Shown piece after piece: positions 32,332-58,307 of a stretch of DNA of 64,000 bases (the first letter of the stretch is position 1; each line of letters opens with the position of its first letter). The notes beneath the pieces were generated by a model, which did no database searches, was not told the origin of the DNA, and worked only from the letters and a program-made list of their open reading frames with translations. Origin of the DNA: Labrenzia sp. DG1229 (GTDB lineage Bacteria > Pseudomonadota > Alphaproteobacteria > Rhizobiales > Stappiaceae); contig NZ_KI928917.1 of NCBI RefSeq assembly GCF_000521215.1, forward strand, positions 15,460-79,459, given 5' to 3'. The translations under genes were made by a program, and so were the position numbers.

Positions 32332-32688
32332 TCATCGTGAAAGCCAAGTCGAATAAGAGTTCGGCGAGAGTATCACCGGCATATGATACCTGGCGTTGCT
32401 GTCGGGCATTCGAAAACGCAGGACGACTTCGCCAATGATCTGATTGCTGTCTGCTCTCGGGTGTATTGCAGCCCAGTAGCGTCCGGACGCAAGAACCAGT
32501 TCGTAGTCGGCCGACGGATCGATCTCGATTGCGTCTATCGTTTCGACCAAACGTCCCCCCGGATCCGTTTCGCTCGCAAATACGCGCCTTCTGGACCCGT
32601 CTTGGCCTATCTCATGGAGCACAATGCCGACACTGCCCGCATGTGTTCCGTCGACACCGTTCAGGACATGAGAAGAAACAACGGCCAT
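32332..32688 (-). CDS. Transthyretin-like protein (5-hydroxyisourate hydrolase family), copy 1
   Basis: A 118-residue protein of the transthyretin/HIU hydrolase fold. The N-terminal motif is SSHVLNGVDG with the catalytic-type His at residue 7. An Arg lies in TDPGGRL, and a second His in RYHMPVILSP, all at family positions. The C-terminus, normally YRGS in HIU hydrolases, reads STWLSR. The start at 32688 overlaps the TPP-enzyme stop by one base (TGATG). No other purine-degradation gene is nearby, so I doubt it acts on hydroxyisourate; a hydrolase or lactonase in the TPP-enzyme pathway is more likely (inference). Confidence 0.85.
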   Translation of the reverse strand: MAVVSSHVLNGVDGTHAGSVGIVLHEIGQDGSRRRVFASETDPGGRLVETIDAIEIDPSADYELVLASGRYWAAIHPRADSNQIIGEVVLRFRMPDSNARYHMPVILSPNSYSTWLSR

Positions 32689-36941: not shown

Positions 36942-37766
36942 TCAATAAGGCTTGTCGCCCCTGATCGTTACCCGGTTTCCGGCTCGTGTCTGCGGAAAAT
37001 AGTCCCACATTGCAATATGCTGAACGCAGCGATTGTCCCAGAAGGCGACCGAGTTTTCCTGCCAGCGAAACCGGGCATGAAACTGCGGTTGATTGCAATG
37101 ATCAAAGAGAAACCTCAGGATCATGTCACCTTCTGCAGCCGGTAGATCAAGAATTGCCGTCGTAAACACCGGATTGACGAAAATCAGCTTCCGTCCTGTC
37201 TGCGGATGCGTGCGAATAACGGGATGTTCTGCTTGTGGAAATTCCCGGTTTTCCTGTTTCCCGTCCTTTGCGGCTCGCATGCGATAGCCCGGCGCTCCAT
37301 CGTGAACCGCCACCAGGGTTTCCAGGTAGGTTTTCATCCTGTCGGAAAGCGCATCGTAAGCCGCATACATATTTGAAAACAAGGTGTCTCCACCGACCGG
37401 TGGCAGTGTGTGAATGTGCAGTATCGACCCCATGGGCGGTTCCGGGTCGCATGAGACATCAGAATGCCAGCGTTCACCGGGGATCTGTTTTGAATTGGCA
37501 TCAGCATAGATGGGCAACACTTCGGGATGTCCCTCTTGCGAGGCGGCATAAGGATGCACATCCAGGTCGCCGAACAGACGGCCAAATTCCTTGTGGCGCT
37601 CAAAAGTCATCCTCTGGTTTCGAAAGAACAAAACCTGATGGGCCAACAAGGCATGCTGGATTTCCCGGACCTGGAGGGGTGCCAATGTTCTCGTCAGATC
37701 AACCCCGTCGACCTCGGCACCCAGCAACGGCGTCACGGGCCGGATCTCTATCGTCTCGTATGTCAC
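36942..37766 (-). CDS. TauD/TfdA-family Fe(II)/2-oxoglutarate-dependent dioxygenase
   Basis: About 274 residues. The iron facial triad is HSD near residue 103 (RWHSDVSCDP) and His in DNRCVQHIAMWDY; the 2-oxoglutarate Arg lies in AGNRVTIRGD. The family opening is ETIEIRPVTPLLGAEVDGVDL. GTG at 37766 follows AGGGGA at a usable distance and matches the family N-terminus. TauD oxidises taurine and releases sulfite; relatives act on other sulfonates, alkyl sulfates or aryloxyacetates. It is the last gene of the TctABC operon, so its substrate should come in through that importer. Confidence 0.88.
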   Translation of the reverse strand: MTYETIEIRPVTPLLGAEVDGVDLTRTLAPLQVREIQHALLAHQVLFFRNQRMTFERHKEFGRLFGDLDVHPYAASQEGHPEVLPIYADANSKQIPGERWHSDVSCDPEPPMGSILHIHTLPPVGGDTLFSNMYAAYDALSDRMKTYLETLVAVHDGAPGYRMRAAKDGKQENREFPQAEHPVIRTHPQTGRKLIFVNPVFTTAILDLPAAEGDMILRFLFDHCNQPQFHARFRWQENSVAFWDNRCVQHIAMWDYFPQTRAGNRVTIRGDKPY

Positions 37767-37820
37767 GTTGAAAGTTCCCCTGTCCTTGATCAGCAAAACC
37801 AACTGCAATTTGCGAACTGA

Positions 37821-39273: not shown

Positions 39274-39624
39274 CTAGCCGGACAACCAGACCGAATACCC
39301 GTGTGGAGACAGAATGACGGGCATATGATAGGTCCCTGCCGGGTCAGGCATCTGAAAACGCAGAACAATCTGTTCAATAAAACCGGAGACAGGTCTGGAG
39401 CCGATACGTTCCGCCCAATAAGGCGTCGTATCGAAGACCAGCTGATAAACCGAAGTTGCGTCCGCGTCCCTCATCTCGACACTTTCCGACACCCGGCCCG
39501 AGGCATCCGTGCAAGTGGCAAAGAGAGACAATCTCTCAGATCCAAGGCGGGTCAGTCGCACGGCGATGCCCTCTGCATGACTGCCGTCCACACTGTTCAG
39601 GGCATGCGAAGTAACGACAGCCAT
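39274..39624 (-). CDS. Transthyretin-like protein (5-hydroxyisourate hydrolase family), copy 2
   Basis: A 116-residue paralogue of 32332-32688. TSHALNSVDG with the N-terminal His, an Arg in TDASGRV and the second His in TYHMPVILSP keep the family active-site positions. The C-terminus reads SVWLSG, again without YRGS. The start at 39624 overlaps the TPP-enzyme stop by one base. It is clearly more diverged from copy 1 than the two TPP enzymes are from each other, so the two transthyretin-like proteins may serve different substrates. Confidence 0.85.
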   Translation of the reverse strand: MAVVTSHALNSVDGSHAEGIAVRLTRLGSERLSLFATCTDASGRVSESVEMRDADATSVYQLVFDTTPYWAERIGSRPVSGFIEQIVLRFQMPDPAGTYHMPVILSPHGYSVWLSG

Positions 39625-41354
39625 CACTCGATTGAAGCCTTTTCGCGCTTGTCGGAGGTCGCGGCAACAATGGGCGATATCACTCCGCGGCATTTCACGT
39701 TGATGCAGGCGGTCTTGCCGCTGGCCTTTGCCCTTTGCATTGCAGCCGGAAATTCTTCGCGCCTGGTGACCAACTCACCATGTCCGCCGAGTCCTTCGAA
39801 CATGGTGTGGAACGGAATGTCGCGAAAATCCGTGGCGTAGTGTTGCCGGTTCTTGAACAGGCGTTCCTGTTGCTGGCTGATGCAATCAAGCCCTGCATTG
39901 TTGTCGACAACGACAATGATCGGAATGTTTTCCTGAAAACAGGTTTCGATTGAAAGTCCGCCTGAAAGAAACGCACCGTCTCCCGTCACCAGCACAACCG
40001 TCTTGTCTCGGTGGACGTTCTTCGCAGACAGCGCGAAGGAAACCCCGACCCCCAGCAGGCTGTAGTTTCCCGGATGAAGGATTCCACCCAGTTTGCGCCC
40101 ACGCGAAGCTGCAATATTTGTAGCGATCTCATTCCAGAAATGTGTGTTGCCGCCGTCAAAGACCAGCCAATCGCCATCTTGCATGCCCGCCTGAACGTCC
40201 AGGGCCAGTTGCAACGGATGCAACTTGCCACCGTCCAACGCGTCCTTGGCCGTCTCCGCTGCAATATGACGCGACCATTCACCGACCCATTCGGCGCGGC
40301 GAGCGCTTTGCAGTTCAAGCCACCCATCCCATGTCTGGCTGACCTCGGACAGGGAATTGAGAAATGCTGCCGGGTCGGACAGGAGCTGCACATCCGCACC
40401 AATGTTGTAGTCCAGTTCTTCGTGACTTCCGTTGACACATACCAGCTTTGTTTCAGGTGGAATGAAGGGCGGATTGCCAAAATTCATCTGGTTATCCAAT
40501 CGGCAACCTACCATCAGCACCAGATCGGCTTCCTGGATCGCGGCTTTCGAGGGGTGATACTGGTGAAAGTCGGCAAGACCCATGTAGGCATCGCATTCTT
40601 CGCCCAGCATCTTGCTGTGATACGGCACATTGAAGATTGGAATGCGAAGTTTGGTGCCGGCATCGGCCAGTGCTCTTTCCCCCCTTGACCACCAGACACC
40701 GTGCCCGCCGATCAGGACAGGACGGTCAGCGGCACCAACCATTGCGAGGATCCGCTCAAGCCTGTCCGGGTCTGGCCAGGCTCGCGGTGCGGGCTTGTCA
40801 GATCGGTCGAACGGACGCTCATTCCGGCCGGCATCTTCGTTGAAGGACGAGAACATGATGTCGACCGGCAACGCCAGGTGAACCGGACCCGGATAACCGG
40901 TGGTGGCTGCCTGCCAGGCGCGATCAACAAACTCACTGATGCGTTCGCCGTCCGTGATTTGCACCGAATATTTGGTCAAGGGTGCGGCAATCGCGACATC
41001 GTCGATTTCCTTGAACCCGCCTGCTCCCTGACGCTTCAGTGTCGAAGACCCCGTTATGAAGATCACGGGCGAGCGTTCGCCCCAAGCTTCCAGCATCGCC
41101 GGAACCGCGTTAGCAAATCCTTCGGGACCAACGAGACAGATCGCTGGTTTGCGGGTGATCCGCGTATGCCCGTCGGCGAGATGGCCGGCAACTTGTTCGT
41201 GCGGGCAATTCACAACCGGCATCTGACATTCCATGAAGCCTTCCAGCGCCGGGTTGCAAAATCCTCCTGCCAGCGTGAAGGCATGATCAACACCCTTTTC
41301 CTTCAGCGCCCGGGCCAGAAGAGCACCTCCACGAATTTTGGTTTGAACGTTCAT
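39624..41354 (-). CDS. Thiamine-diphosphate-dependent enzyme (acetolactate synthase-like), copy 2
   Basis: A 576-residue paralogue of 32688-34418 with the same length and domains. Catalytic Glu in NCPHEQVAGH, TPP motif VLVTGDGAFLSGG through VVVDNN. Over residues 6-135 I count ten differences between the copies, nearly all conservative. Nucleotide sequences differ at many third positions, so the duplication is old and both copies are under selection. It follows TctA and precedes the second transthyretin-like gene. Confidence 0.88.
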   Translation of the reverse strand: MNVQTKIRGGALLARALKEKGVDHAFTLAGGFCNPALEGFMECQMPVVNCPHEQVAGHLADGHTRITRKPAICLVGPEGFANAVPAMLEAWGERSPVIFITGSSTLKRQGAGGFKEIDDVAIAAPLTKYSVQITDGERISEFVDRAWQAATTGYPGPVHLALPVDIMFSSFNEDAGRNERPFDRSDKPAPRAWPDPDRLERILAMVGAADRPVLIGGHGVWWSRGERALADAGTKLRIPIFNVPYHSKMLGEECDAYMGLADFHQYHPSKAAIQEADLVLMVGCRLDNQMNFGNPPFIPPETKLVCVNGSHEELDYNIGADVQLLSDPAAFLNSLSEVSQTWDGWLELQSARRAEWVGEWSRHIAAETAKDALDGGKLHPLQLALDVQAGMQDGDWLVFDGGNTHFWNEIATNIAASRGRKLGGILHPGNYSLLGVGVSFALSAKNVHRDKTVVLVTGDGAFLSGGLSIETCFQENIPIIVVVDNNAGLDCISQQQERLFKNRQHYATDFRDIPFHTMFEGLGGHGELVTRREEFPAAMQRAKASGKTACINVKCRGVISPIVAATSDKREKASIE

Positions 41355-45758: not shown

Positions 45759-45828
45759 ATTGGATTAGTGCGCTGCAAAATTCCACCCTAGATTTGCGCC
45801 AAATTTGTCGAATACAGGACATCGCCGC

Positions 45829-46992
45829 ATGGCATTGGAATTCCCCAAATCTCCATGGATGAACGAGGAACTGCTTCTTCTTGAGGATGCGTGCCGGCAG
45901 TTCTACGAACGCGAATGCGTCCCGCATTATGAGGAATGGGAAGCGCGCGGTGATGTCGGCCGGAAAGTATGGGAAAAGGCGGGCCAGATGGGCTTGCTCG
46001 GCGCCGAGGTTCCGGAGGCTTATGGTGGGCCGGGCGGAAACTTCGCGCACGACGCCGTCATCGCCTACCAGGGCAATCTTGCGGGCATCGACGGGTGGGG
46101 CGGAGGCCTGCACAACTCCATCGTGATTCCGTACATCATCGACTACGGCTCCGAAGAACAGAAACAAAATCTGTTGCCGAGACTGGTCAGCGGAGAGCTG
46201 ATTGGCGCAATTGCGATGACCGAGCCCGGAGCTGGATCGGATCTGCAGGCGATCAAGACCAGCGCCGTCAAGGACGGCAACCACTACAGGATTTCAGGAT
46301 CCAAGACCTTCATTACGAACGGGGCCCTTGCAAATCTTGTTATTGTCGTTGCGAAAACCGACCCGAGAACGGGCGGCAGGGGAATATCGCTGTTCCTGGT
46401 GGAGACTGACACTGTTGAAGGTTTCAGGCGCGGCCGCAACCTGGACAAGCTCGGAATGAAGTCCAACGACACATCCGAAATGTTTTTCGACGACATGCGG
46501 GTTCCTGCATCCGCACTCCTGGGAAGCGAAGAGGGTCAGGGGTTTGTGCAGATGATGCAGCAACTGCCTCAGGAGCGTCTTCTCATCGGCGTTTATGCGG
46601 TCGCCCGAATGGAGCGCGCGCTCCGTTTGACACTGGATTACGTGTCGGAAAGGTCTGCTTTCGGCAGAAAGATTTCTGAATTTCAGAACACCGAATTCGT
46701 TCTTGCGGAATGTGCGTCCGAGGCGACGGTTGCCAAGGTCTTCCTGGATCATTGCATTTCGGAACACCTGGAATGCCGGCTGACGACCGAAAAAGCATCG
46801 ATGGCCAAATTCTGGCTGACCGATCTTCAAGCGAGGATCATCGACAGATGTCTCCAGCTTTTCGGTGGTTACGGTGTGATGAGCGAATATCCGATCGAGC
46901 GCATGTATCGCGACAACAGGATTGAACGCATCTACGCCGGGACCAACGAAATCATGAAAGTCGTGATCGCCCGTGGACTTTTCAGGGACTGA
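45829..46992 (+). CDS. Acyl-CoA dehydrogenase
   Basis: A 387-residue acyl-CoA dehydrogenase. FAD/substrate stretches: IGAIAMTEPGAGSDLQAIKT, FITNGALANLVIVVAKTD, RSAFGRKISEFQ and QLFGGYGVMSEYPIERMYRD. The MCAD-position catalytic Glu (IYEGT) is Ala here (IYAGTNEIMK), as in long-chain and isovaleryl-type enzymes whose base lies on an earlier helix; the Glu in VARMERAL is the candidate. It is much shorter than the ~600-residue DmdC. It introduces a 2,3-double bond into an acyl-CoA. First gene of the plus-strand block, 3 bp before the crotonase. Confidence 0.92.
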   Translation: MALEFPKSPWMNEELLLLEDACRQFYERECVPHYEEWEARGDVGRKVWEKAGQMGLLGAEVPEAYGGPGGNFAHDAVIAYQGNLAGIDGWGGGLHNSIVIPYIIDYGSEEQKQNLLPRLVSGELIGAIAMTEPGAGSDLQAIKTSAVKDGNHYRISGSKTFITNGALANLVIVVAKTDPRTGGRGISLFLVETDTVEGFRRGRNLDKLGMKSNDTSEMFFDDMRVPASALLGSEEGQGFVQMMQQLPQERLLIGVYAVARMERALRLTLDYVSERSAFGRKISEFQNTEFVLAECASEATVAKVFLDHCISEHLECRLTTEKASMAKFWLTDLQARIIDRCLQLFGGYGVMSEYPIERMYRDNRIERIYAGTNEIMKVVIARGLFRD

Positions 46993-46995
46993 GAA

Positions 46996-47790
46996 ATGTC
47001 TGGAGAACACATTCTGTTCGAAACGCGGGTCGGCAGCCTTGCCCGCCTGACGCTCAACCGGCCGGCAGCGCGAAACAGCCTGTCGGTCGCGATGCTCGAG
47101 CAATTGCATGATGCAATACTGCGTCTTGGAGAGACGCCGGAGGTTCACGTCATCATCCTGTCCGGGACCGGGCCTGCATTTTGTGCCGGCCACGATCTCA
47201 GGGAACTTACTGCCGCGCGTCAGCAGCCGGACAAGGGGCAGTCCTTTTTTCAGGAAACGATGAGCAAGTGTTCGCAATTGATGACGGCAGTTGCCCATTG
47301 TCCCAAACCCGTAATTGCACAGGTGCATGGCATCGCGACAGCCGCCGGAGCACAACTGGTGGCCAGTTGCGATCTCGCGGTCGCGGAACGGGGAGCCCGA
47401 TTTGCGACCCCCGGCGTCAATATCGGGTTGTTCTGCTCGACACCCATGGTGGCGCTGTCTCGCAATGTCTCGCGCAAGGCAGCAATGGAGCTTCTGTTGA
47501 CTGGTGAAATGATCGAGGCGGACGAGGCAAGACGCATCGGCCTGATAAACCGGATTGCCGAAACCGGGGCGCTCGAAAAGGTAACGGAGGACCTGGCTGC
47601 CCAGATTGCCTCGAAAGCACCTGCCACGCTTCGGATCGGCAAGGAGGCATTTTATCGCCAAATTGAAATGCCGCTCACCGAGGCCTACAGTTTTGCATCG
47701 CAAGTGATGACGGCCAACATGATGCAACCGGATGCCGAAGAGGGGATTTCGGCTTTTCTGGAAAAACGCGAAGCGAACTGGCAGCGTTAG
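46996..47790 (+). CDS. Enoyl-CoA hydratase/isomerase family protein (ECHDC3-like, lacks both catalytic Glu)
   Basis: A 264-residue crotonase. The oxyanion-hole stretch is GTGPAFCAGHDLREL near residue 65 and the CoA fold is complete. In crotonase the two catalytic glutamates lie in FAQPEI and GGT regions; here the segment reads FATPGVNIGLFCSTPMVAL, with Gly and no Glu at those places. The same pattern is known in the eukaryotic ECHDC3 group. It may therefore not be a simple hydratase. In this operon it follows the acyl-CoA dehydrogenase and precedes the thiol oxidase. Confidence 0.9.
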   Translation: MSGEHILFETRVGSLARLTLNRPAARNSLSVAMLEQLHDAILRLGETPEVHVIILSGTGPAFCAGHDLRELTAARQQPDKGQSFFQETMSKCSQLMTAVAHCPKPVIAQVHGIATAAGAQLVASCDLAVAERGARFATPGVNIGLFCSTPMVALSRNVSRKAAMELLLTGEMIEADEARRIGLINRIAETGALEKVTEDLAAQIASKAPATLRIGKEAFYRQIEMPLTEAYSFASQVMTANMMQPDAEEGISAFLEKREANWQR

Positions 47791-47835: not shown

Positions 47836-49191
47836 ATGGCGAAAGCATGTTGCGGACCAGGCTATGCGAGTCCAGCTGAAGCGATGCAGGCCCCACGTGA
47901 AAAACTTCTCTATACGATCGCGATTTACACCGGCACCGGCATCCAGAAACCGGACTATCTGTGTACGATCGACGCCGACCCCGAGAGTCCGACCTATTCG
48001 CAGGTGATCAGCCGGCTGGAGATGCCCGGCATTGGCGATGAGTTGCATCATATGGGTTGGAACGCCTGCTCTTCGTGCCACGACGATGAAAACATGGAAC
48101 GCAAGTATCTGATCGTGCCCGGTGTCCGTTCAACAAATCTGCACATCATTGACTGCGCCACGGATCCGCGCAATCCGACCCTCTTCAAGGTTATCGAAGG
48201 GTCCGAGATCAAAGCCAGGACCAATCTGTCAGCGCCTCACACCGTGCACTGCCTCGGATCTGAAATCATAATCTCGATGTTGGGAGATGCCCAGGGCAAT
48301 GCACCTGGTGGATATCTTCATCTGGACAAGGAATTCAACATCATCGGCCGGTGGGAAAACTCCATGGGCGAGATCAAGTTCGGTTACGATTTCTGGTACC
48401 AGCCTCGGCACAATGTGATGGTTTCATCCGAATGGGCCGCCCCCAACACCTTCATGCCGGGCTTTGATCTGGAGGAGGTCGGACATCTCAAGTATGGCCG
48501 CGAATTGCATTTCTGGGACTTCGAGAAGAAGGAACCCAGGCAAACCATGTATCTCGGGGAAGACGGTCTCATTCCTCTTGAAGTTCGCTTTCACCACAAT
48601 CCCGACAGCAGCCATGGTTTCGTCGGCGCCGCCCTGTCCGCCAACATCATCCACTGGTGGAAAGACACTGCCGGAGAATGGCAGTGGGAAAAAATCGTCG
48701 ACGTTGACAATGAGCCGCATCCGGACTGGCCGATCCCGATCCCGGGCGTAATCTCGGTCATTCTTCTATCCATGGACGACAGGTTTCTCTACCTGTGCAA
48801 CTGGCTCCATGGAGACATAAGGCAATATGACATTTCCGATCCGCATAAGCCGGTGTTGACAGGACAGGTCTGGATGGGTGGATTGCTTGGAAAAGCTCCG
48901 GAAGTCAACGGCGTCAAGGTAACCGGTGGTCCGCAGATGATCCAACTCAGTCTGGACGGGAAACGGCTTTTTGTGACCACATCCCTCTTTTCGACCTGGG
49001 ACAACCAGTTCTACCCGGAGATACGGACCAATGGCGGTTGCATGCTGATGGTCAATTGCGACACGGAAAACGGAGGGATGGAAATCGATCCGGACTTTGT
49101 CGTCGACTTCGGCAAGGAACCGAATGGCCCGAGCCGGTGTCATGAAACCCGCTATCCGGGCGGCGACTGTACGAGCGACATCTGGATATGA
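47836..49191 (+). CDS. SELENBP1/SBP56-family protein, probable methanethiol oxidase
   Basis: A 451-residue SBP56 protein of full length. CGPGYASPAEAM, GIGDELHHMGWNACSSC, GYDFWYQPRHNVM, SNWLHGDIRQYDISDP-type NWLHGDIRQYDIS and the C-terminal RYPGGDCTSDIWI match the eukaryotic-type family closely. Metal-site His and the CSSC cysteines are conserved. Bacterial MtoX and human SELENBP1 oxidise methanethiol to formaldehyde, sulfide and peroxide. This protein has no signal peptide, unlike the periplasmic Hyphomicrobium enzyme. Its stop overlaps the ferredoxin start (ATGA). Confidence 0.92.
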   Translation: MAKACCGPGYASPAEAMQAPREKLLYTIAIYTGTGIQKPDYLCTIDADPESPTYSQVISRLEMPGIGDELHHMGWNACSSCHDDENMERKYLIVPGVRSTNLHIIDCATDPRNPTLFKVIEGSEIKARTNLSAPHTVHCLGSEIIISMLGDAQGNAPGGYLHLDKEFNIIGRWENSMGEIKFGYDFWYQPRHNVMVSSEWAAPNTFMPGFDLEEVGHLKYGRELHFWDFEKKEPRQTMYLGEDGLIPLEVRFHHNPDSSHGFVGAALSANIIHWWKDTAGEWQWEKIVDVDNEPHPDWPIPIPGVISVILLSMDDRFLYLCNWLHGDIRQYDISDPHKPVLTGQVWMGGLLGKAPEVNGVKVTGGPQMIQLSLDGKRLFVTTSLFSTWDNQFYPEIRTNGGCMLMVNCDTENGGMEIDPDFVVDFGKEPNGPSRCHETRYPGGDCTSDIWI

Positions 49192-49559
49192 CCAAGGTCA
49201 CCGTCACTCTGGCCAACAGGCAAGACCAGACATTTGAGGTCGATCCTCGCAAAACTCTGTTGGCATCCTTGAGCGAGCAAGGCGTCGATCTGCCTTATGG
49301 CTGCAAGTACGGCGGATGCATCACCTGCGCTGCCAGACTGATGAGCGGTTCGGTCAATCAATCGGCACAGGTCGCATTGAACAACCGGCAGATAAGCGAC
49401 GGATACATCATCTTGTGTGTTGCGCGACCGCTGAGCGACTGTTGCCTCGAGATAGGCGTCGACAGTCATGGCAAACTTTATCGCAATCCCTTCCTCGACC
49501 CGTTGGCTGATCATGAATTGAAGGCAGACATTGCGGCGCCTACGAAGGAAAACACATGA
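49188..49559 (+). CDS. 2Fe-2S ferredoxin (plant-type)
   Basis: A 123-residue ferredoxin. The cluster Cys lie in YGCKYGGCITCAA (C-x4-C-x2-C pattern, about residues 39-47) with the fourth in IILCVARPL near residue 77. Plant-type, oxygenase-linked fold. It overlaps both the SELENBP1-like gene and the CoA-binding gene by ATGA, so the three are translated together. It may carry electrons for the thiol oxidation or for another redox step in the operon (inference). Confidence 0.92.
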   Translation: MTKVTVTLANRQDQTFEVDPRKTLLASLSEQGVDLPYGCKYGGCITCAARLMSGSVNQSAQVALNNRQISDGYIILCVARPLSDCCLEIGVDSHGKLYRNPFLDPLADHELKADIAAPTKENT

Positions 49560-50005
49560 ATCACGAAGAACCCTACACAGAAGCCTACCTTCAGGGGATT
49601 CTGAAATCCGTCAAGACGATCGCCATGGTTGGTGCGAGTCCGGACAAGACCAAGTTCAGCTATGGCGTTTTGAGGGTTTTGCATGAAACCGGATATGACA
49701 TGATCCCGGTGAACCCGCGCGCCGGCCTCACGGAAATCCGGGGCATTCGTGTCTACCCGACACTCCAGTCGATTGATCGTCCTGTCGATATGGTCGAAGT
49801 GTTCCGGCGTTCGGAAGACCTTTTGGGCATTGCACGTGATGCCGTCGCCATTGGTGCGAAAGTCCTCTGGGGCCAGATTGGTGTCCGCGACGACGAGGCC
49901 GCCAGGCTGGCGGAAGAAGCCGGATTGAAGGTGGTGATGAACCGTTGCCCCAAGATCGAACTGTTCCGCCCGTTCTGGAAGCCGAAACTCCACCTTTCGA
50001 TTTGA
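49556..50005 (+). CDS. CoA-binding domain protein (YccU family)
   Basis: A 149-residue protein. VKTIAMVGASPDKTKFSYGV is the CoA/nucleotide-binding N-terminus, then VNPRAG and the family C-terminus NRCPKIELFRPF. YccU-type proteins bind CoA; their reaction is unknown. It is coupled to the ferredoxin (ATGA) and precedes a hairpin in a 172-bp gap, so it may end the first transcript unit or be followed by reduced expression. Confidence 0.9.
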   Translation: MNHEEPYTEAYLQGILKSVKTIAMVGASPDKTKFSYGVLRVLHETGYDMIPVNPRAGLTEIRGIRVYPTLQSIDRPVDMVEVFRRSEDLLGIARDAVAIGAKVLWGQIGVRDDEAARLAEEAGLKVVMNRCPKIELFRPFWKPKLHLSI

Positions 50006-50177: not shown

Positions 50178-50576
50178 ATGGCCCAGTCGATTACCGTCGG
50201 GATCGAGCACCTGCTCGATGAGGCCCGGAAGGAGATTATGACCCTGCCAATTGATGAAGCTGTCCGGCTTTCAGAGAGGGATGATCACGTCTTCGTCGAT
50301 TTGCGGGACATTCGCGAGATCAATCGGACCGGCAAGGTCCCAGGCTCATTTTCCTGTCCGCGCGGCATGCTGGAATTCTGGATCGATCCTGAAAGCCCGT
50401 ATCACAAGGAGATTTTCAATCAGGACAAAACATACGTCTTCTACTGCGCAAGCGGCTGGCGATCGGCGCTGAGCGCGAAAACAGCAATGACGATGGGCCT
50501 GTCCCCGGTTGCACATGTTGACGGCGGATTCACTGCCTGGATAGCCGCGAATGGGCCGATTGAAACCAAAGACTGA
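50178..50576 (+). CDS. Rhodanese-like sulfurtransferase
   Basis: A 132-residue single-domain rhodanese. The active-site loop is CASGWRS with Cys near residue 93, preceded by YVFY. The N-terminal part holds DDHVFVDLRDIREI and the C-terminal VDGGFTAWI. It moves sulfane sulfur to cyanide or thiol acceptors, which suits handling of sulfide or persulfide made by methanethiol oxidation (inference). Overlaps nothing; 62 bp before the thiolase start chosen here. Confidence 0.92.
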   Translation: MAQSITVGIEHLLDEARKEIMTLPIDEAVRLSERDDHVFVDLRDIREINRTGKVPGSFSCPRGMLEFWIDPESPYHKEIFNQDKTYVFYCASGWRSALSAKTAMTMGLSPVAHVDGGFTAWIAANGPIETKD

Positions 50577-50637
50577 TATCAGTCCGACCGGCGAGCCGGC
50601 GGCAAACAACTCAATTTCACCTTCAGAGGGACTTATC

Positions 50638-51831
50638 GTGCTCGAAAACGTCGTCATAGCATCCGGCGTTCGCACTGCCATTGGCAGCTTCGGAGGCGCC
50701 CTGGCAGGGACAACACCTTGCGATCTTGCGCAGGCCGTTGCTGCAGAGGCAATCAGCCGTGCGGGAATATCACCAAGTGCGGTTCAGCAGGCCGTTTTCG
50801 GCAATGTCATCCATACAGAACCGCGGGATATGTATCTTGCGCGCGTTGCTTCAATCGGTGCAGGCATGCCGGTTACGTCCCCTGCTCTCACGCTGAACCG
50901 TTTGTGCGGCAGCGGGTTGCAGGCCGTTGTGACGGCAGCAGAAGCAATTGCGCTCGGCAACGCCGAAGTAGCGCTCGCAGGTGGCGCTGAAAACATGAGC
51001 CGTGCCGGGCACCTGATCAGCCCGTCCCGCTTTGGACAAAAAATGGGAGACATCTCGGCAACCGACATGATGGTTGGGGCGTTGTCGGATCCGTTCGGCA
51101 ACGGGCACATGGGCGTCACAGCGGAGAACATTGCCGTCGGCGAAAGAATTGACAGAGACACCCAGGATGCACTCGCGCTGCGCAGCCACAAACGGGCCGC
51201 CGCAGCGATAGAGGCAGGACATTTTAAAGATCAGATATTGCCTTTCGCTGTGAAAAGGGGCCGAAAGGAAACTGTCTTTGAAATCGACGAACACGTCAGA
51301 TCCGATATTTCGGCGGAAGACCTCCGGAACCTTCGACCCGCGTTCGCGCGCGAAGGCAGCGTGACAGCTGGCAACGCATCCGGCATCAATGATGGTGCCG
51401 CCGCCCTGGTGCTCGCGTCTCGCGAAGCGTCCGACAGGTTCGAACTGCCGCAACTTGCCTTCATCCGGTCCGCTGCGCTTGGCGGCGTGGCACCCGAGGT
51501 GATGGGTCTTGGGCCGGTGCCTGCCGTAACAGAGGCGCTCGACCGCGCCGGTCTGGGCATCGGCGACCTGTCGGTAATCGAATCCAACGAAGCCTTCGCG
51601 GCGCAGGCCTGTGCAGTGGCCGAAAAACTCGGTTTTCCGGAAGAAATCACGAACCCGAATGGCGGAGCGATCGCGTTGGGACATCCGGTTGGCGCTTCCG
51701 GTGCAGTCATTCTGATCAAACTTGTCTTCGAGCTGCGTCGGACCGCTGGCCGCTTCGGTCTTGCGACGATGTGCATCGGCGGAGGTCAGGGCATTGCCGT
51801 AATTGTTGAAAACGCGGAGCACACAGCATGA
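50638..51831 (+). CDS. Acetyl-CoA acetyltransferase/thiolase
   Basis: About 397 residues. Catalytic Cys in TLNRLCGSGLQAVV (residue ~90), His in NGGAIALGHPVGASG, and second Cys in TMCIGGGQGIA. I choose GTG at 50638, preceded by GAGGGA at seven bases, since the longer upstream frame runs into the rhodanese gene and adds unlike residues. It cleaves a 3-oxoacyl-CoA with CoA to acetyl-CoA. Overlaps the hydroxyacyl-CoA dehydrogenase by ATGA. Confidence 0.92.
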   Translation: MLENVVIASGVRTAIGSFGGALAGTTPCDLAQAVAAEAISRAGISPSAVQQAVFGNVIHTEPRDMYLARVASIGAGMPVTSPALTLNRLCGSGLQAVVTAAEAIALGNAEVALAGGAENMSRAGHLISPSRFGQKMGDISATDMMVGALSDPFGNGHMGVTAENIAVGERIDRDTQDALALRSHKRAAAAIEAGHFKDQILPFAVKRGRKETVFEIDEHVRSDISAEDLRNLRPAFAREGSVTAGNASGINDGAAALVLASREASDRFELPQLAFIRSAALGGVAPEVMGLGPVPAVTEALDRAGLGIGDLSVIESNEAFAAQACAVAEKLGFPEEITNPNGGAIALGHPVGASGAVILIKLVFELRRTAGRFGLATMCIGGGQGIAVIVENAEHTA

Positions 51832-52877
51832 CGAAAATCGAAACCGTTGCGGTTGTTGGTGCCGGAACCATGGGAACGGGTATTGCACTCTCAGCTCTGC
51901 GTACCGGGTTGAACGTTGTTCTCGTCGACGCATCCGCCCCTGCATTGGAACGGTCTCTTACGAAAATGAAAAGATTCTTTTCGCGACAGGTCGAAAAGGA
52001 AAAGATGAGTTCAGATGAGGCATCGCTTGCCCAGGAACGTTGTTTGTTTGCTGAAAACCTGGAAGACGTCAGCAAGGCCGAACTCTGCATTGAAGCGGTC
52101 TTTGAGGATCTCGCGTTGAAGCGGCAGATTTTCAAGGACCTTGAAAAGGTTGTTGGTCCCGACACCACGCTTGCGACAAATACCAGCGCATTGAAGGTGA
52201 GTGAAATCGGAGCCGGTCTCGCGGCTCCGGAGCGTCTCTGCGGCATGCATTTCTTTAGCCCTGCCGAGATCAATCCCGTTGTGGAGGTCGTGCGCGGGGA
52301 CAAGACAACGGACACGACGATACTTGCCGTTCTCGATTATCTGAAATCCGCCGGCAAGGAACCGATTGAGTGCCGTGACCACGCCGGGTTTGCGCTCAAC
52401 CGTTTCTTTTGCCCCTACACCAACGAAGCAGCCCGTTGCGTTGACGACGGCCTTGGAACCCCGGCCCAGATCGACGAAATCGCCATACAGGTGTTCGGTG
52501 TTGGCATTGGACCGTTTGCGGTCATGAACATCGTCAAACCGCGGATAAATCTTGCTGCGGTTCGCAACCTCGCCGAACTGGGAGAGTTTTACGCACCCGC
52601 AGACAGCTTGCAAAGATTGGGTGATGCCGACGGATACTGGGATATGGGCGCCGCAAACGCACCACTGGACGAAAATACGGTCAGGCGAATTGGAGATCGT
52701 TTGAAAGGCGCGGTTTTTCTGGCCGTGCTCGAAGAGCTGGAGGAGCGGGTTGCCACCCCTGAAGCCATAGACAATGGCGCTCGCAAGGCATTCACGTTCG
52801 CAAGGGGCCCGGTTGAATTCATGCATCTCTCCGGCGAGCAGGAGGTCCACAGGCTCGTCGAGATGGTCAAGCCATGA
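51828..52877 (+). CDS. 3-Hydroxyacyl-CoA dehydrogenase
   Basis: A 349-residue NAD-dependent enzyme. NAD motif VAVVGAGTMGTGIALSA at residues ~7-23, catalytic His in GMHFFSPAEINPVVEVV near residue 140, and the Asn in FALNRFF. C-terminal helical domains follow with a second copy-like stretch VFGVGIGPFAVMN. With the dehydrogenase, crotonase and thiolase it completes a beta-oxidation cycle. No acyl-CoA ligase is in the window. Confidence 0.92.
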   Translation: MTKIETVAVVGAGTMGTGIALSALRTGLNVVLVDASAPALERSLTKMKRFFSRQVEKEKMSSDEASLAQERCLFAENLEDVSKAELCIEAVFEDLALKRQIFKDLEKVVGPDTTLATNTSALKVSEIGAGLAAPERLCGMHFFSPAEINPVVEVVRGDKTTDTTILAVLDYLKSAGKEPIECRDHAGFALNRFFCPYTNEAARCVDDGLGTPAQIDEIAIQVFGVGIGPFAVMNIVKPRINLAAVRNLAELGEFYAPADSLQRLGDADGYWDMGAANAPLDENTVRRIGDRLKGAVFLAVLEELEERVATPEAIDNGARKAFTFARGPVEFMHLSGEQEVHRLVEMVKP

Positions 52878-53157: not shown

Positions 53158-54170
53158 ATGAAGCAGCTAAACAAAGGTGCGAAAGCTATCCTGGTAGGCG
53201 CTATCGTTTCTGCCGGTTTTTTCGCCGGATCCGCCTTTGCGCAAGAGCACACCGCACGACTTTCTTTCCACTGGAGCCCGACTCATCACAGTGCAATACA
53301 CGCACAGATGTTTGCCGACGAGGTCAACAAACGTGCCGATGGACGTTTGAAGATCGAGGTTTTTCCTTCGGGACAGCTCTTTGGTATTCGCGAACAACTC
53401 GGCGCCGTCACGTCCGGTGCGGTTGAAATCGGCGGCATTGTGCCAATCGTCAGCTTTCCACCGGTCAACAAGAACTACAACGTTGCCGCCTTTCCAGGCA
53501 TGTTCAATTCCTATGATCAGCAACGCCGGTTTTTCGCAGAATCCGAAGCGGGACAGGAAATCTGGAACGACATAACCGGAAAGTCGGGCACCACGCTGCT
53601 GATGTATAATCCGGTCGGTCCGGTAATGACATTCAGCGGCGCCCGCGAACTTGACAGCCTGGAAGCAATGAAAGGGCTGAAGGCACGCGCACTCATCAAA
53701 AGCGAACGGCCAATGTGGGAAGCATACGGAGCCAACACGGTGTCCTTGCGACCGGCGAAGTCTATACCGCACTTCAGACCGGGATGATCGATACCATCAA
53801 CAGCCCACCCGGCAGCATCAGGGCCTACAGCTGGTGGGAGTATCTGGGATATGCCCAGCTCCCGTACCAGTATTTTTCTGACGCCTATCTGATGGCAAAC
53901 ACCGAATGGTACAACAGTCTGCCTGCCGACCTGCAGCAATTGCTACAGGAAGTCGGGGCGGAAGTCGGCGCGATTTCCACCGACAAGATCATTGAAACCG
54001 GTGAGGAAACCCTCGCACAGTTCAAGGAACGCGGCGGCGTCGTGACGGAACTGTCGGGCGAACAAAAGGCTGAATTCGATGCCTTGATGGCGGCCGAAGT
54101 TGTGCCTGCAATGGTTGATTTGGTCGACGATTCCGTGCTCGGTGCGGCACAGGAGTTTGTTTCCGAGTAG
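53158..54170 (+). pseudogene. TRAP transporter substrate-binding protein (DctP family) with a -1 frameshift
   Basis: Read through, about 337 residues. Sec signal peptide AILVGAIVSAGFFAGSAFAQE, then HWSPTHHSAIHAQMFADEVNKRADGRLKIEVFPSGQL, standard for DctP. The frame breaks near 53748-53750: after YGANTVSL the coding sequence continues one frame away as ATGEVYTALQTGMIDTINSPP, a typical DctP segment. One missing base (TTGCGACC for TTG-NCG-ACC) explains it. GGGAGGACACC precedes the ATG. Binds a carboxylate for the DctQM importer. Preceded by a 280-bp gap with no gene. Confidence 0.85.
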
Positions 54171-54187
54171 ACTGTGTTCCCCAATGA

Positions 54188-54213
54188 CGGCGACTGTGCC
54201 CGCACAGTCGCCG
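54188..54213 (+). other. Strong hairpin after the TRAP binding-protein gene
   Basis: An 11-bp stem, CGGCGACTGTG (54188-54198) with CACAGTCGCCG (54203-54213), and a 4-base loop CCCG. It begins 17 bases after the dctP-like stop and before the DctQ gene. Same placement as the hairpins behind the ABC binding-protein genes. Confidence 0.7.
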
Positions 54214-54246
54214 CTTGCTTGAAAATATCATGGACAGGTAGATCGT

Positions 54247-54780
54247 ATGAATGGCCTCTTGCTGGCGCTGCGTCGCGTCAATGGCGTCTTGGCGCGTCTG
54301 TCAAACTACCTGGGGATGACTATTGTCGCCATCATGGTGACGGCGCTCACCGCCAGCGCAGTAACGCGCTACATATCCGGCACAGGTTACGATTGGCTGA
54401 TAGAACTGCCCCCTGCCCTTGTCCCCTGGCTGGTGTTTCCGCTTTTGGGCCCCTTGCTGAGATCCGGTGATCATATCAAGGTCGATCTTCTTCCGACCTT
54501 TCTTCCGGCAAGGAAAACGCTGTATCTGAATTTGTTCTGCTACACGCTCACATTTATTGGCGCATTGATATTTCTTGTCGCCGGCAACGAGGCCGTGGCC
54601 CTGTTCCACAGGCTCGGACAGTTGATGGAGCTCGAAATCGAAATTCCGATCTGGTGGATGTACCTCGCCTTCCCGGTTGGCTTTGGCATGCTGGCACTTT
54701 TCGCGCTGGAGCTGATCCTTGAGACGCTACGGGCACTGTTTGCCGGCACAAAGGCCGAGACGGCGGGAGAACCCTCATGA
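54247..54780 (+). CDS. TRAP transporter small permease (DctQ family)
   Basis: A 177-residue protein with four membrane segments: IVAIMVTALTASAVTRYI, LVFPLLGPLL, YTLTFIGALIFLVAG and FPVGFGMLALFALELI. Length and spacing fit DctQ. ATG at 54247 follows TGGACAGGTAG weakly. Stop overlaps the DctM start (ATGA). Confidence 0.88.
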   Translation: MNGLLLALRRVNGVLARLSNYLGMTIVAIMVTALTASAVTRYISGTGYDWLIELPPALVPWLVFPLLGPLLRSGDHIKVDLLPTFLPARKTLYLNLFCYTLTFIGALIFLVAGNEAVALFHRLGQLMELEIEIPIWWMYLAFPVGFGMLALFALELILETLRALFAGTKAETAGEPS

Positions 54781-56045
54781 ACCTGCTGGCAATCGGTTTC
54801 TCCACTATCCTCCTGTTCCTCTCGGTTCCGATCTTCATGGTTTTTGGTCTGGGCAGTTCGGCAAGTGCGATCTGGGGTTTGAACCTGCCCTGGTCCACTC
54901 TCATCCAGGTCGCATTCGGCTCCATGACCAAGCACGTGCTCATTGCCGTTCCCCTGTTCATTTTCACGGGTATGGCAATGTTGCGCGGTGGAGCCGCTGC
55001 TCGTCTCGTGGGATTTGCGACCGCTCTTGTCGGTCACTGGCCGGGTGGACTTGGAATTGCGATGGTGATCGCGATGGGATTTTTCGCTGCCTTCTGTGGC
55101 TCCATTCTCGCCGCCATTACGGCGGTGGGTACGATCATGATGCCCAAAATGATAGAGCAGGGCTATCCCAAGCCGTTTGTTATCGTTCTGGCTGCATCCG
55201 CTGCTCTTCTGGAGTCCCTCATTCCCCCTTCGAACGCGGCAATTCTGTTCAGTGCACTCACGGATGTTCCCGTCGACCGGACGTTTGCCGCCGGCATGAT
55301 ACCTGGTCTCATTCTCCTCGTGCTCATGTCTGCGGTTGTCATGTGGAAGTGCCGGCACTTGCGAAATCCGGTACGATCGAGCGGATCCGAAAAGTTGAAT
55401 GCCTTCGTCGCCTCGATTCCGGCCCTTTTTTCTCCGGTAATCATTCTGGGGGGCATCTATGCCGGTCTGCTGACACCATCTGAGTCGGCCGCCATGGCCG
55501 GGGTATGGGCATTGTTCATCGGGTTTTTTGTCTATCGGGAACTCACAATCGGCGGCCTGATGGAGTGCCTCAGGCAAACGGCAAAGATTACCGCGGTGAT
55601 TTTCGCCATCATAGCGATGGCGACTTTCCTGAGCGTCGTTCTGACGTACACTCAAGCGCCCCAGAAGATCATCACCTTCTTTACAGAACTCGGCGGAACG
55701 CCAATGATGTTCTGGCTCGCAGTAGCCATGATCTGCCTCATCCTGGGAACATTTGTCGAGATCGTCCCTGTCTTTTACCTGACAGTGCCGATCTTCGCTG
55801 CCCTTGCATTGTCGCTGGGTCTGGATGTTCTGCATCTCTACGTCGTTTTCGTCGCTTTTGCCGGTATCGGCATGATCACGCCGCCGGTTTGTGTCGGTGT
55901 TTACACAGCCGCAGGGGTCGTTCGGGAGAGCCCCGAAAAAGCATTCCGGGAAGTGCCCCTGTTCATGCTTGTCGGCATTGTCTTCGGGCTGATCCTGATC
56001 TTCCTGCCGGGTTCCGCAACCTGGTTGCCAAGCATCCTGAATTGA
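54777..56045 (+). CDS. TRAP transporter large permease (DctM family)
   Basis: A 422-residue membrane protein with about twelve segments. DctM marks: VPLFIFTGMAMLRGGAAARL, HWPGGLGIAMVIAMGFFAAFCGS, AAITAVGTIMMP and LIPPSNAAILFSALTDVPV. It provides the sodium-driven channel for the acid bound by the dctP-like protein. Twelve bases separate it from the molybdoenzyme gene, so the transporter and the enzyme are co-transcribed. Confidence 0.93.
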   Translation: MNLLAIGFSTILLFLSVPIFMVFGLGSSASAIWGLNLPWSTLIQVAFGSMTKHVLIAVPLFIFTGMAMLRGGAAARLVGFATALVGHWPGGLGIAMVIAMGFFAAFCGSILAAITAVGTIMMPKMIEQGYPKPFVIVLAASAALLESLIPPSNAAILFSALTDVPVDRTFAAGMIPGLILLVLMSAVVMWKCRHLRNPVRSSGSEKLNAFVASIPALFSPVIILGGIYAGLLTPSESAAMAGVWALFIGFFVYRELTIGGLMECLRQTAKITAVIFAIIAMATFLSVVLTYTQAPQKIITFFTELGGTPMMFWLAVAMICLILGTFVEIVPVFYLTVPIFAALALSLGLDVLHLYVVFVAFAGIGMITPPVCVGVYTAAGVVRESPEKAFREVPLFMLVGIVFGLILIFLPGSATWLPSILN

Positions 56046-56057
56046 GAGAACAATTCG

Positions 56058-58307
56058 ATGCCCGTGAAGGATATGGCGCTTACCAGCACCCACTGGGGTA
56101 CGTACCGCGTGGAGGTTTCCGGCGGACGGGTCGTTGCCCTGCATCCGTTCGAACACGATCCTGACCCCTCGCCGATCGGACATGGAATTGCGGCAACGAT
56201 TGATGATGACAAGAGAATTCGCAGCCCTATGGTCCGGCGAGGTTGGCGAAACGGCACGTCGAAATCGGCAACCGGGGAACGCGGACGGGACACTTTTGAA
56301 GCGGTAAGTTGGGATGAAGCCGAAAGTCTTGTTGCAGACGAGCTCGATCGCGTTCGTCGCACTTTTGGAAACAATGCTATCTACGGAGGGTCCTATGGTT
56401 GGGCATCCGCAGGCAGGTTCCACCACGCGCAAAGCCAGATCCATCGATTCCTGAATTGCGTAGGTGGCTATACCCGCTCCGTGAACACCTACAGCTACGC
56501 CGCGGCCGAGGTCGCGATCCCTCATGTGCTCGGTGACTTCAAGACCTTTGTGAATTCAACGACCAGCTGGAGTTCGGTGTCTGGAAATACCGAACTGTTT
56601 GTTGCCTTTGGCGGTGTGCCGCTCAAGAACGGCCAGATAGATAATGGGGGTGTCGGTGAGCATGGCCAGCGTGCCGGCATTCTGGAAGCCGCCCGTACCG
56701 GCACGTCTTTTGTAAATGTCAGTCCTGCGCGGGCGTCCATGCCCGCAGAAGTCAATGCCGAATGGCTCAACATACGCCCATGCACAGACACGGCGCTTTT
56801 GCTTGCTATTGCCTATGTTCTCCTGGAAGAGGATTTGGCCGACCGGAATTTTCTGCGACGGTTTACAGTCGGCATTGAGAAAGTTGAACAGTATCTTCGA
56901 GGCCGGATGGACGGTGTTGCCAAAACACCTGATTGGGCAGCAGGCATCTGTCTGATCGCTTCTGAAGACATTCGAAACCTTGCCCGCAAGATGGCAACAA
57001 GACGTTGCAAGATCTCCGTGAGCTGGTCACTGACCCGTCAACAATACGGCGAGCAGCCGTTCTGGGCCGGGATAACCGTTGCCGCGATGCTGGGGCAGAT
57101 CGGATTGCCGGGCGGCGGCATCGGTTTTGGATTCAGCGCGACAAACGGGATTGGCGCCCAGTATCAACGCCTGCCATATGCAAGTCTTCCCCAGGGTGAA
57201 AATCCGATCTCCGATTTTATTCCCGTCGCGCGCATTGCCGACATGCTTTTGAAGCCTGGGTCAACTTTCACCTATGACGGAGAAACGTACACCTATCCGG
57301 ACATCCGGCTGGTTTATTGGGCCGGCGGCAATCCGTTTCATCACCACCAGGATCTGAACCGGCTGGACCGGGCGTGGCAGGTGCCCGAAACGGTCATAAC
57401 GCATGACTGGTGCTGGACGTCGACTGCCCTCTTCTCCGACATCGTCCTTCCCTGCACCACGCATCTGGAAAGAACTGATTTGGCCCTGTCTCCACGCGAC
57501 GCCTATGTCGTGTCCATGCAACAGGCCATCCAGCCCACCGGGAATGCGCGCGACGACTATTCGATCTTCGCCGCAATTGCCAGGAAAATGGGCCTGGAAC
57601 TTGAATTTACGGAGGGGAAGACTGCCGAGGAGTGGGTCACATGGATTTATGACAGTTCGCGACAAAGGTTTGCACAGGCGGGGCTGGAACTCCCCACACT
57701 TGACGACTTGAAGAGCACCGGTTGGCACAAGATTGAAATGCCCGACGAACCGACGGTAATGCTCGAGGCCTTTCGAAAAGCCCCGGAGGATGCTCCGCTG
57801 AAAACACCTTCAGGTCGTATCGAACTTTATTCCGAAAAGGTTGCCGCTTTCGGTTATCCCGACTGTCCGGGTCATGCAGCCTGGCTGCCGCCGGATGAAT
57901 GGTTGGGAAGTCCGGAAAAGGATCGCTATCCCTTGCACCTGATCTGCGTTCAACCCCAAACGAAATTGCATTCGCAGCTCGATCACGGACCGGTCAGCCA
58001 GGCCGCAAAAATTGACGGTTGCGAACCGGTACACATCTGCCCTGCGGATGCGGCTGCCCGGGGAATTTCCGACAGGCAACTCGTAAAGCTATTCAACAAA
58101 CGCGGCACATGCAGGGCAGCAGCAGTTCTGGACAATGACATTCGTCCCGGCGTGGTTCAGATCAACACCGGTGCCTGGTATGACCCTGACGAAGACGGGA
58201 CATGCCGAAACGGCAACCCGAACGTGCTTACGCCCGATATCGGCACGTCAGGTCTTGCGCAGGGTCCTTCTGCGCATTCCTGCCTGGTGGAGATTGCACC
58301 CGATTGA
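56058..58307 (+). CDS. Molybdopterin oxidoreductase of the DMSO/TMAO/biotin-sulfoxide reductase family
   Basis: A 749-residue Mo-bis-MGD enzyme of the BisC/DorA/TorA branch. GGSYGWASAGRFHHAQS near residues 110-127 carries the Tyr typical of S-oxide reductases rather than TMAO reductase. The Mo ligand is Ser 146 in NTYSYAAAEVAIPHV. The middle and C-terminal dinucleotide-binding domains are present (YWAGGNPFHHHQDLNRL; LHSQLDHGPVSQ). It has no N-terminal FeS motif and no Tat or Sec signal, so it acts in the cytoplasm like BisC. Substrate is probably a sulfoxide or N-oxide imported by the TRAP system. Confidence 0.9.
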   Translation: MPVKDMALTSTHWGTYRVEVSGGRVVALHPFEHDPDPSPIGHGIAATIDDDKRIRSPMVRRGWRNGTSKSATGERGRDTFEAVSWDEAESLVADELDRVRRTFGNNAIYGGSYGWASAGRFHHAQSQIHRFLNCVGGYTRSVNTYSYAAAEVAIPHVLGDFKTFVNSTTSWSSVSGNTELFVAFGGVPLKNGQIDNGGVGEHGQRAGILEAARTGTSFVNVSPARASMPAEVNAEWLNIRPCTDTALLLAIAYVLLEEDLADRNFLRRFTVGIEKVEQYLRGRMDGVAKTPDWAAGICLIASEDIRNLARKMATRRCKISVSWSLTRQQYGEQPFWAGITVAAMLGQIGLPGGGIGFGFSATNGIGAQYQRLPYASLPQGENPISDFIPVARIADMLLKPGSTFTYDGETYTYPDIRLVYWAGGNPFHHHQDLNRLDRAWQVPETVITHDWCWTSTALFSDIVLPCTTHLERTDLALSPRDAYVVSMQQAIQPTGNARDDYSIFAAIARKMGLELEFTEGKTAEEWVTWIYDSSRQRFAQAGLELPTLDDLKSTGWHKIEMPDEPTVMLEAFRKAPEDAPLKTPSGRIELYSEKVAAFGYPDCPGHAAWLPPDEWLGSPEKDRYPLHLICVQPQTKLHSQLDHGPVSQAAKIDGCEPVHICPADAAARGISDRQLVKLFNKRGTCRAAAVLDNDIRPGVVQINTGAWYDPDEDGTCRNGNPNVLTPDIGTSGLAQGPSAHSCLVEIAPD

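Follow-up and report, generated by a model that had tools for sequence, protein, structure and literature searches.

A predicted cytoplasmic S-oxide reductase behind a TRAP importer in Labrenzia sp. DG1229 and its genomic association with sulfur demethylation

Introduction

What does a molybdoenzyme do when its gene stands directly behind a tripartite ATP-independent periplasmic (TRAP) importer? In Labrenzia sp. DG1229 such an arrangement lies on the + strand at positions 53158-58307 of a 64,000-nucleotide stretch of contig NZ_KI928917.1 (hereafter the window), in the order dctP, dctQ, dctM and a molybdoenzyme gene whose product we name MoX. An initial annotation proposed that the importer takes up a sulfoxide acid and that MoX reduces it to the thioether before beta-oxidation. 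Our results favor part of this proposal. The enzyme is of the S-/N-oxide-reductase type, and the gene content of the genomes that carry it links it to organosulfur demethylation and to the oxidation of methanethiol, as does gene order in a single relative; this association is the stronger and the new part. A sulfoxide cargo for the TRAP system is the weaker part and stays conjectural, as dctM adjoins MoX in one lineage only, relatives of DctP stand beside TauD genes, and sequence by itself names no substrate. The words “before beta-oxidation” are plausible only because genes of acyl-CoA metabolism adjoin. We tentatively suggest that MoX may be a cytoplasmic S-oxide reductase feeding a demethylation of the dimethylsulfoniopropionate (DMSP) type, a reading to which we give somewhat less than an even chance.

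The question touches on dimethylsulfoxonium propionate (DMSOP). In the text available to us, one paper names the action of the DMSP demethylase DmdA on DMSOP as a priority for future work (PMC10686828), and another states that the enzymes interconverting DMSP and DMSOP are unidentified (PMC10689795). The available portions of two 2026 papers that mention both DmdA and DMSOP gave no answer to the former, and a literature search for methylsulfinylpropionate under various spellings found no paper. The occurrence of MoX with DmdA and a methanethiol oxidase across several families would give both DMSOP questions an enzyme on which they can be tested, to which its position directly behind DmdA in one genome adds, and would make it a testable candidate for an unassigned step of the marine sulfur cycle.

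Results and Discussion

Family and predicted location of MoX

MoX (56058..58307, + strand, 749 residues) is a predicted molybdopterin S-/N-oxide reductase of the DorA/TorA/BisC group. Its only Pfam matches at E <= 0.001 are PF00384, PF01568 and PF18364; the N-terminal Fe-S domain was not found by Pfam, a likeness to Rhodobacter DorA. The best NCBIfam model, TIGR00509 (bisC_fam), gave 875.1 bits, which is below its curated cut-off of 1017.55. The solved structures nearest by sequence are reductases of dimethyl sulfoxide (DMSO) and trimethylamine N-oxide (TMAO), and those of DorA score best (1eu1, 1dmr and others; best E 2.6e-178, to 1eu1), aligning over residues 7/8-746. Ser146 aligns with the serine that ligates molybdenum and is Ser in 66/66 rows of our alignment. 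Tyr113, the tyrosine of the S-oxide type, is present in 64/66, the exceptions being E. coli TorA, where it is missing, and E. coli BisC, a partial sequence that does not cover the position. With the Trp also kept, MoX has the Ser ligand, Tyr and Trp of DorA, in whose numbering we take these residues to be Ser147, Tyr114 and Trp116. The BisC/DorA-type enzyme with a Ser ligand and an S-oxide-type Tyr that the initial annotation had described is thus borne out by both domains and residues.

DorA is periplasmic; MoX, unlike it, has no signal peptide, since the reading frame is open for just 4 codons ahead of the ATG, and the cytoplasmic location first assigned to it stands. In lacking an export signal, in its Ser ligand and in its family MoX resembles E. 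coli BisC, which has no export signal according to the available text of PMC10689795. The two differ in that BLAST identity is 38.9% (over 645 BisC residues) and MoX falls in a separate clade. The methionine sulfoxide reductase MtsZ/TorZ, which reduces free Met-S-sulfoxide, is of the same family; it acts in the periplasm (PMC7402097, available text), whereas MoX is cytoplasmic by prediction and E. coli TorZ lies outside its clade.

That clade was recovered twice. In a 66-row tree MoX fell with full support inside 25 rows set apart from E. coli BisC, TorZ and TorA, with BisC (645 residues used) pairing with TorZ; a FastTree tree of 95 rows, from which the E. coli sequences were left out, returned the identical 25 rows with a support of 98. 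A twin-arginine-like motif occurs in the N-terminal head of 1/95 rows, that of a locus outside the clade (L164; genomes, contigs and loci carry our own G, C and L numbers). Placement covered, from the order sample (397 genomes including this one), the 29 best-scoring loci of other genomes plus the copies L087, L163 and L164. Lower-scoring rows of this sample, at <50% identity to the window MoX, were counted outside the clade, the lowest tested member of which is 52% identical; a second, partial copy in G060 (53%) was left out of the tree. From the class sample (240 genomes including this one), 41/42 MoX rows outside this genome at E <= 1e-230 were placed, with G552 left out. Judged from sequence, MoX belongs to the family in its domains and active-site residues but is not an orthologue of E. 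coli BisC, and its clade is distinct and mainly alphaproteobacterial.

Co-occurrence with SBP56 and DmdA

Ahead of the importer the window encodes an SBP56 protein resembling the cluster-1 methanethiol oxidases (47836..49191, + strand; PF05694, 692 bits). The available text of PMC10936201 gives for cluster 1 the motifs GWNACS, HTV/IHC and GGDCS/T, and describes the motif cysteines of the cluster-1 enzymes RdMTO and RlMTO as necessary and sulfane sulfur as produced. The window protein has all three cysteine motifs (GWNACS at 74, HTVHC at 135, GGDCT at 442), as have 23/23 SBP56 homologues compared at BLAST E <= 1e-100. Against the NCBIfam MtoX model NF052453 it scores 149.7 bits, below the cut-off of 650.

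At a presence threshold of E <= 1e-150, SBP56 is found in 21/397 order genomes including this one (20/396 others), and in 6/6 of the other order genomes with a clade MoX (G036, G037, G038, G113, G144 and G181, from four families; Fisher 7.5e-9). The class sample has SBP56 in 5/240 genomes including this one (4/239 others), and in 2/5 other genomes with a clade MoX (G504 and G607, not G432, G483 or G589; Fisher 0.0021). DmdA, called as a match to the DMSP demethylase model NF009133 above its curated cut-off, occurs in 8/8 genomes with both clade MoX and SBP56, in 5/16 with SBP56 only, in 0/2 with clade MoX only (G589 and G432, the two searched of three) and in 2/58 with neither. With a looser call at E <= 1e-60 the corresponding counts are 8/8, 12/16, 0/2 and 6/58. 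Of the well-known control genomes, 0/14 gave a DmdA. The results should be interpreted with caution: Fisher values for both versus neither (7.8e-9, two-sided) and for both versus SBP56 only (0.0017), like those given above, overstate the association because related genomes (the eight are from five families) are treated as independent and the comparison sets were chosen by hand. For these, 42 control genomes were picked, 28 with a MoX outside the clade and 14 by low number; the other 16 genomes without SBP56 come from this genome's own family, and none was randomly drawn.

This genome has its own DmdA on contig C6 (629 bits, cut-off 410), the sole match in the genome at E <= 1e-60, and the nearest solved structure is 3tfh, presumably the Pelagibacter enzyme. 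Against the model of 3-(methylthio)propionyl-CoA ligase, the adjoining acyl-CoA ligase scores 306 bits, with a cut-off of 822. DmdA and a three-motif SBP56 in one genome recall the DMSP demethylation pathway with a cluster-1 methanethiol oxidase. Two differences are that the available text of the DMSOP and DmdA papers names no S-oxide reductase as a part of that pathway, and that dmdA lies outside the window; no GCV_T gene (the type to which DmdA belongs) was found within 6 kb of MoX in the window, so that dmdA does not adjoin MoX there.

According to our hypothesis MoX, a single-subunit molybdenum enzyme, would carry out the intracellular reduction of a small methylated sulfur oxide; its substrate and electron donor are what we infer here. 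The reduced sulfur could then enter demethylation, through DmdA, the acyl-CoA steps, methanethiol, the SBP56 methanethiol oxidase and the rhodanese. The best candidate substrates may be 3-(methylsulfinyl)propionate or DMSOP itself. On chemical reasoning, DMSOP minus one methyl group would give 3-(methylsulfinyl)propionate, the reduction of which would give methylmercaptopropionate, the product that DmdA makes from DMSP. The TRAP system may import the substrate of MoX or a companion acid. A more specific version, which we regard as distinctly unlikely in its full form, is that enzymes of the MoX clade perform the unassigned reduction in DMSOP breakdown, either by converting DMSOP to DMSP or by reducing to methylmercaptopropionate the 3-(methylsulfinyl)propionate that DmdA would make from DMSOP, with the Roseibium TRAP system importing that acid. 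If true, DMSOP would gain a demethylation route ending in a methanethiol oxidase, beside the known lyase route.

A different fate of DMSOP would have MoX reduce DMSO, set free in the cell when a DMSP lyase cleaves DMSOP, to dimethyl sulfide (DMS). DMSP lyases split DMSOP to DMSO (PMC10686828, available text), and the genome has a match to DMSP_lyase (PF16867; 56 bits, cut-off 27). However, DMSO should require no TRAP importer, and what MoX is associated with in the genomes is DmdA, from which the line of products bypasses DMS; we consider this alternative very improbable.

Two observations concern DmdA itself. In this genome, genes for a PpoB2 copper chaperone and a DUF1326 protein lie upstream of dmdA, and elsewhere PpoB2 in G286 and DUF1326 in G038 are likewise unexplained companions of dmdA (loci L153, on contig C6 of this genome, L155 and L161). 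DmdA-like proteins under the NF009133 cut-off adjoin SBP56 in three genomes (G018 C26:20290, G041 C11:369332 and G081 C3:460269), and are perhaps demethylases of another sulfur compound.

Gene neighbors of MoX in relatives

Gene order points the same way in one relative. In G181 a BMP-type ATP-binding cassette (ABC) importer, DmdA (475 bits, cut-off 410) and, after 49 bp, MoX follow each other on one strand. In L047 and L053, two clade loci from Rhodobacteraceae, another GCV_T protein ends 2 bp ahead of MoX; that of L047 scores under the DmdA cut-off, and its best match is to the demethylase portion of a TMAO demethylase model. Proteins of the GCV_T type carry out folate-dependent methyl transfer. 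A gene of this type stands directly ahead of MoX in 3/21 clade loci versus 0/65 outside (p 0.013), a count that represents two lineages and that was made with a profile whose seeds included the G181 and L047 proteins. In another clade locus (L051) MoX is followed at 1.1 kb by a distant SBP56 (40%).

Further clade neighbors include a CoA-transferase gene with acyl-CoA dehydrogenase and MmgE/PrpD genes, SelD, a gene for a YeeE/YedE-type sulfur transporter and, in one case, an O-succinylhomoserine sulfhydrylase on the opposite strand. Some of these neighbor genes were named from gene calls by length only, which are prone to antisense frames in GC-rich loci, and others from a codon-usage caller. 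Such variety fits a clade of S-oxide reductases with differing substrates, and fits a general salvage enzyme equally well.

Two of the clade's loci deserve separate mention. A second MoX, 55% identical to the first, is present in Roseibium album (L048:5219-12319) and in this genome (L070, contig C17, by open reading frame lengths), where it stands behind an SBP_bac_3 ABC importer and an enzyme of the pyridoxal phosphate (PLP) fold that has no NCBIfam match; the locus perhaps serves to take up and cleave a sulfoxide amino acid. The L047 cluster (L047:6720-15812) comprises a GMC oxidoreductase, the GCV_T protein, MoX, an HpcH aldolase, a GRDB-like reading frame, a 253-residue protein without a Pfam match, and SelD. 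The GRDB-like frame is short (151 residues) and perhaps ended by a selenocysteine TGA. By reading-frame lengths, a cluster of this type also occurs in L053 and, from MoX onward, in L054. A selenium link of the MoX clade is possible.

The TRAP importer

The importer in the window comprises DctP, DctQ and DctM in the standard gene order of TRAP systems. Its solute-binding protein gene is broken into two frames: part 1 (53158..53787, + strand) covers PF03480 positions 4-160 and part 2, in a different frame (53715..54170, + strand), positions 161-277 of 286. CECT 5095 of the marine species Roseibium album has an unbroken dctP of 337 residues in the corresponding place, to which part 1 is 97% (residues 1-202) and part 2 98% identical (residues 197-337). 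The R. album locus and the window share 94.8% DNA identity along 12.6 kb. The small permease gene dctQ (54247..54780, + strand; PF04290, 75 bits, cut-off 28.3) overlaps the large permease gene dctM (54777..56045, + strand; PF06808, 281 bits, cut-off 23.8) by 4 bp, and DctM is above the cut-off of TIGR00786 as well (289 bits versus 268.45). The gap of 12 bp between dctM and MoX, reported earlier, is confirmed by the reading-frame coordinates; R. album has the identical spacing, and 280 bp separate the TRAP genes from those upstream. From strand and spacing, dctM and MoX may well be co-transcribed. Promoter and terminator scans returned 6 versus 2.8 and 5 versus 6.1 expected, respectively, and neither was used.

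Omega against R. album (Nei-Gojobori) was 0.035 and 0.040 for the parts of dctP, 0.061 for dctQ, 0.017 for dctM, 0.019 for SBP56 and 0.151 for MoX, a range of 0.017-0.151 that indicates purifying selection on all of them. Since the changes in dctP are mainly synonymous, its break is probably recent or an error of the record. The R. album DctP retains the Arg of GLKxR, which we take to be the ligand Arg of TRAP proteins. A single-sequence structure model of this DctP reached a mean pLDDT (predicted local distance difference test score) of 36 and was discarded; a literature search on the two nearest solved DctP structures found no paper, and we claim no ligand.

DctM genes as such are frequent here, with 63 DctM match rows in the genome, several being pieces of one gene, so a dctM ahead of a given gene is uncommon and not extraordinary. 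The MoX paralogue of this genome has one 5.1 kb behind it. Outside the MoX clade, L188 and L192, from two genomes of one genus (G429 and G557), each have a weak same-strand DctM match (114 and 116 bits) at 1.1 kb ahead of MoX.

Weighing the alternatives

Several observations weigh against a link of MoX to demethylation and to the importer. Three clade genomes (G589, G432 and G483) lack SBP56, and both of those searched for DmdA (G589 and G432) were found without it at E <= 1e-60. In this assembly MoX is on contig C2 and DmdA on contig C6. Some clade members, this genome's paralogue among them, stand beside an amino-acid-type ABC importer and a PLP-fold enzyme, and other clade neighbors, including choline-sulfatase-like genes and a sigma factor, have no evident DMSP link. 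Enzymes of the DorA/TorA/BisC family are broad in their S- and N-oxide substrates. A dctM directly ahead of MoX (same strand, <=300 bp upstream) was seen in 2/86 MoX loci, both of one Roseibium lineage; in having a molybdoenzyme directly behind, the two sister genomes thus differ from TRAP systems otherwise like theirs. This count rules out TRAP-MoX as a conserved module, and the adjacency cannot alone show a common substrate. Finally, the nearest relatives of DctP, at 46-47% identity in two genomes of one genus (G477 and G591), adjoin TauD dioxygenases.

The main rival, given that the variety of neighbors fits it equally well, is that MoX is a salvage reductase of methionine-S-sulfoxide or biotin sulfoxide, like E. 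coli BisC, and that its place behind the TRAP genes is meaningless. Family, cytoplasmic location and the BisC literature (PMC7402097 and PMC10100899, available text) speak for salvage, as do the wide differences in gene neighborhood among MoX relatives and an omega for MoX that exceeds those of the TRAP genes (0.017-0.061). However, E. coli BisC and TorZ lie outside the 25-row clade, general salvage would give no reason to expect the link to SBP56 and DmdA, and the 12-bp spacing is unchanged in R. album. We hold salvage to be rather unlikely, and continue to prefer an S-oxide reductase that may feed demethylation.

The context of DctP relatives bears on a second rival, in which the acid imported by the TRAP system has no connection with MoX and is, for example, a sulfonate or ether acid that is the substrate of a TauD/TfdA dioxygenase. 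Relatives are few: none at E <= 1e-60 in 396 other order genomes, and at E <= 1e-40 in 3/239 class genomes. The TauD genes beside those of G477 and G591 favor this explanation, and the window has a TauD/TfdA-type dioxygenase gene (36942..37808, - strand), 15 kb upstream, that was the genome's sole hit in a comparison with the TauD adjoining the G477 DctPQM genes. However, G477 and G591 are of one genus and therefore perhaps represent one event, the third relative (G440, ~41% identity) lies near hydantoinase genes, and the TauD gene in the window is on the opposite strand and 15 kb off. We think an unrelated cargo unlikely. The attempt to read the cargo from the context of DctP relatives failed, with TauD in one genus and hydantoinase genes in another. 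The G477 locus additionally has a Rieske oxygenase, a CoA ligase and an amidase.

As a separate observation, two similar 576-residue thiamine diphosphate enzymes of the acetolactate-synthase type are encoded on the - strand of the window (32688-34418 and 39624-41354), flanking genes of the 2-hydroxyacid dehydrogenase type and TauD. Both are below the cut-off for all 25 models listed.

Genes upstream of the importer

The gene for SBP56 is followed by those for a 2Fe-2S ferredoxin-like protein (49188..49559, + strand; PF00111) and a CoA-binding protein (49556..50005, + strand; PF13380). A relative of the latter adjoins SBP56 in 15/20 order loci and in 3/3 class loci examined, mostly with the ferredoxin gene between; of the five order loci without it, one stops at a contig end and four have an SBP56 of 69-71% identity. 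Next come a rhodanese domain protein (50178..50576, + strand; PF00581), which in an operon with SBP56 would fit a sulfane sulfur product, a BktB-like thiolase (50551..51831, + strand; NF006552, 568.5 bits, cut-off 565) whose true start is probably further in, and a 3-hydroxyacyl-CoA dehydrogenase (51828..52877, + strand; PF02737, PF00725). On the other side of SBP56 lie an acyl-CoA dehydrogenase of 395 residues (45805..46992, + strand) and a member of the enoyl-CoA hydratase family (46996..47790, + strand; NF006008, 394 bits, cut-off 313). These two could not be assigned as DmdC and DmdD, as no model of either matched, and no DmdD was named among the best 60 of 117 structures similar to the hydratase.

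Parts of this gene set recur in other genomes with a clade MoX. The SBP56 cluster of G607 has a rhodanese and an acyl-CoA ligase, that of G181 has a rhodanese along with a thiolase that is 70% identical to its counterpart in the window, and the DmdA cluster of G504 includes a thiolase 58% identical to the window's.

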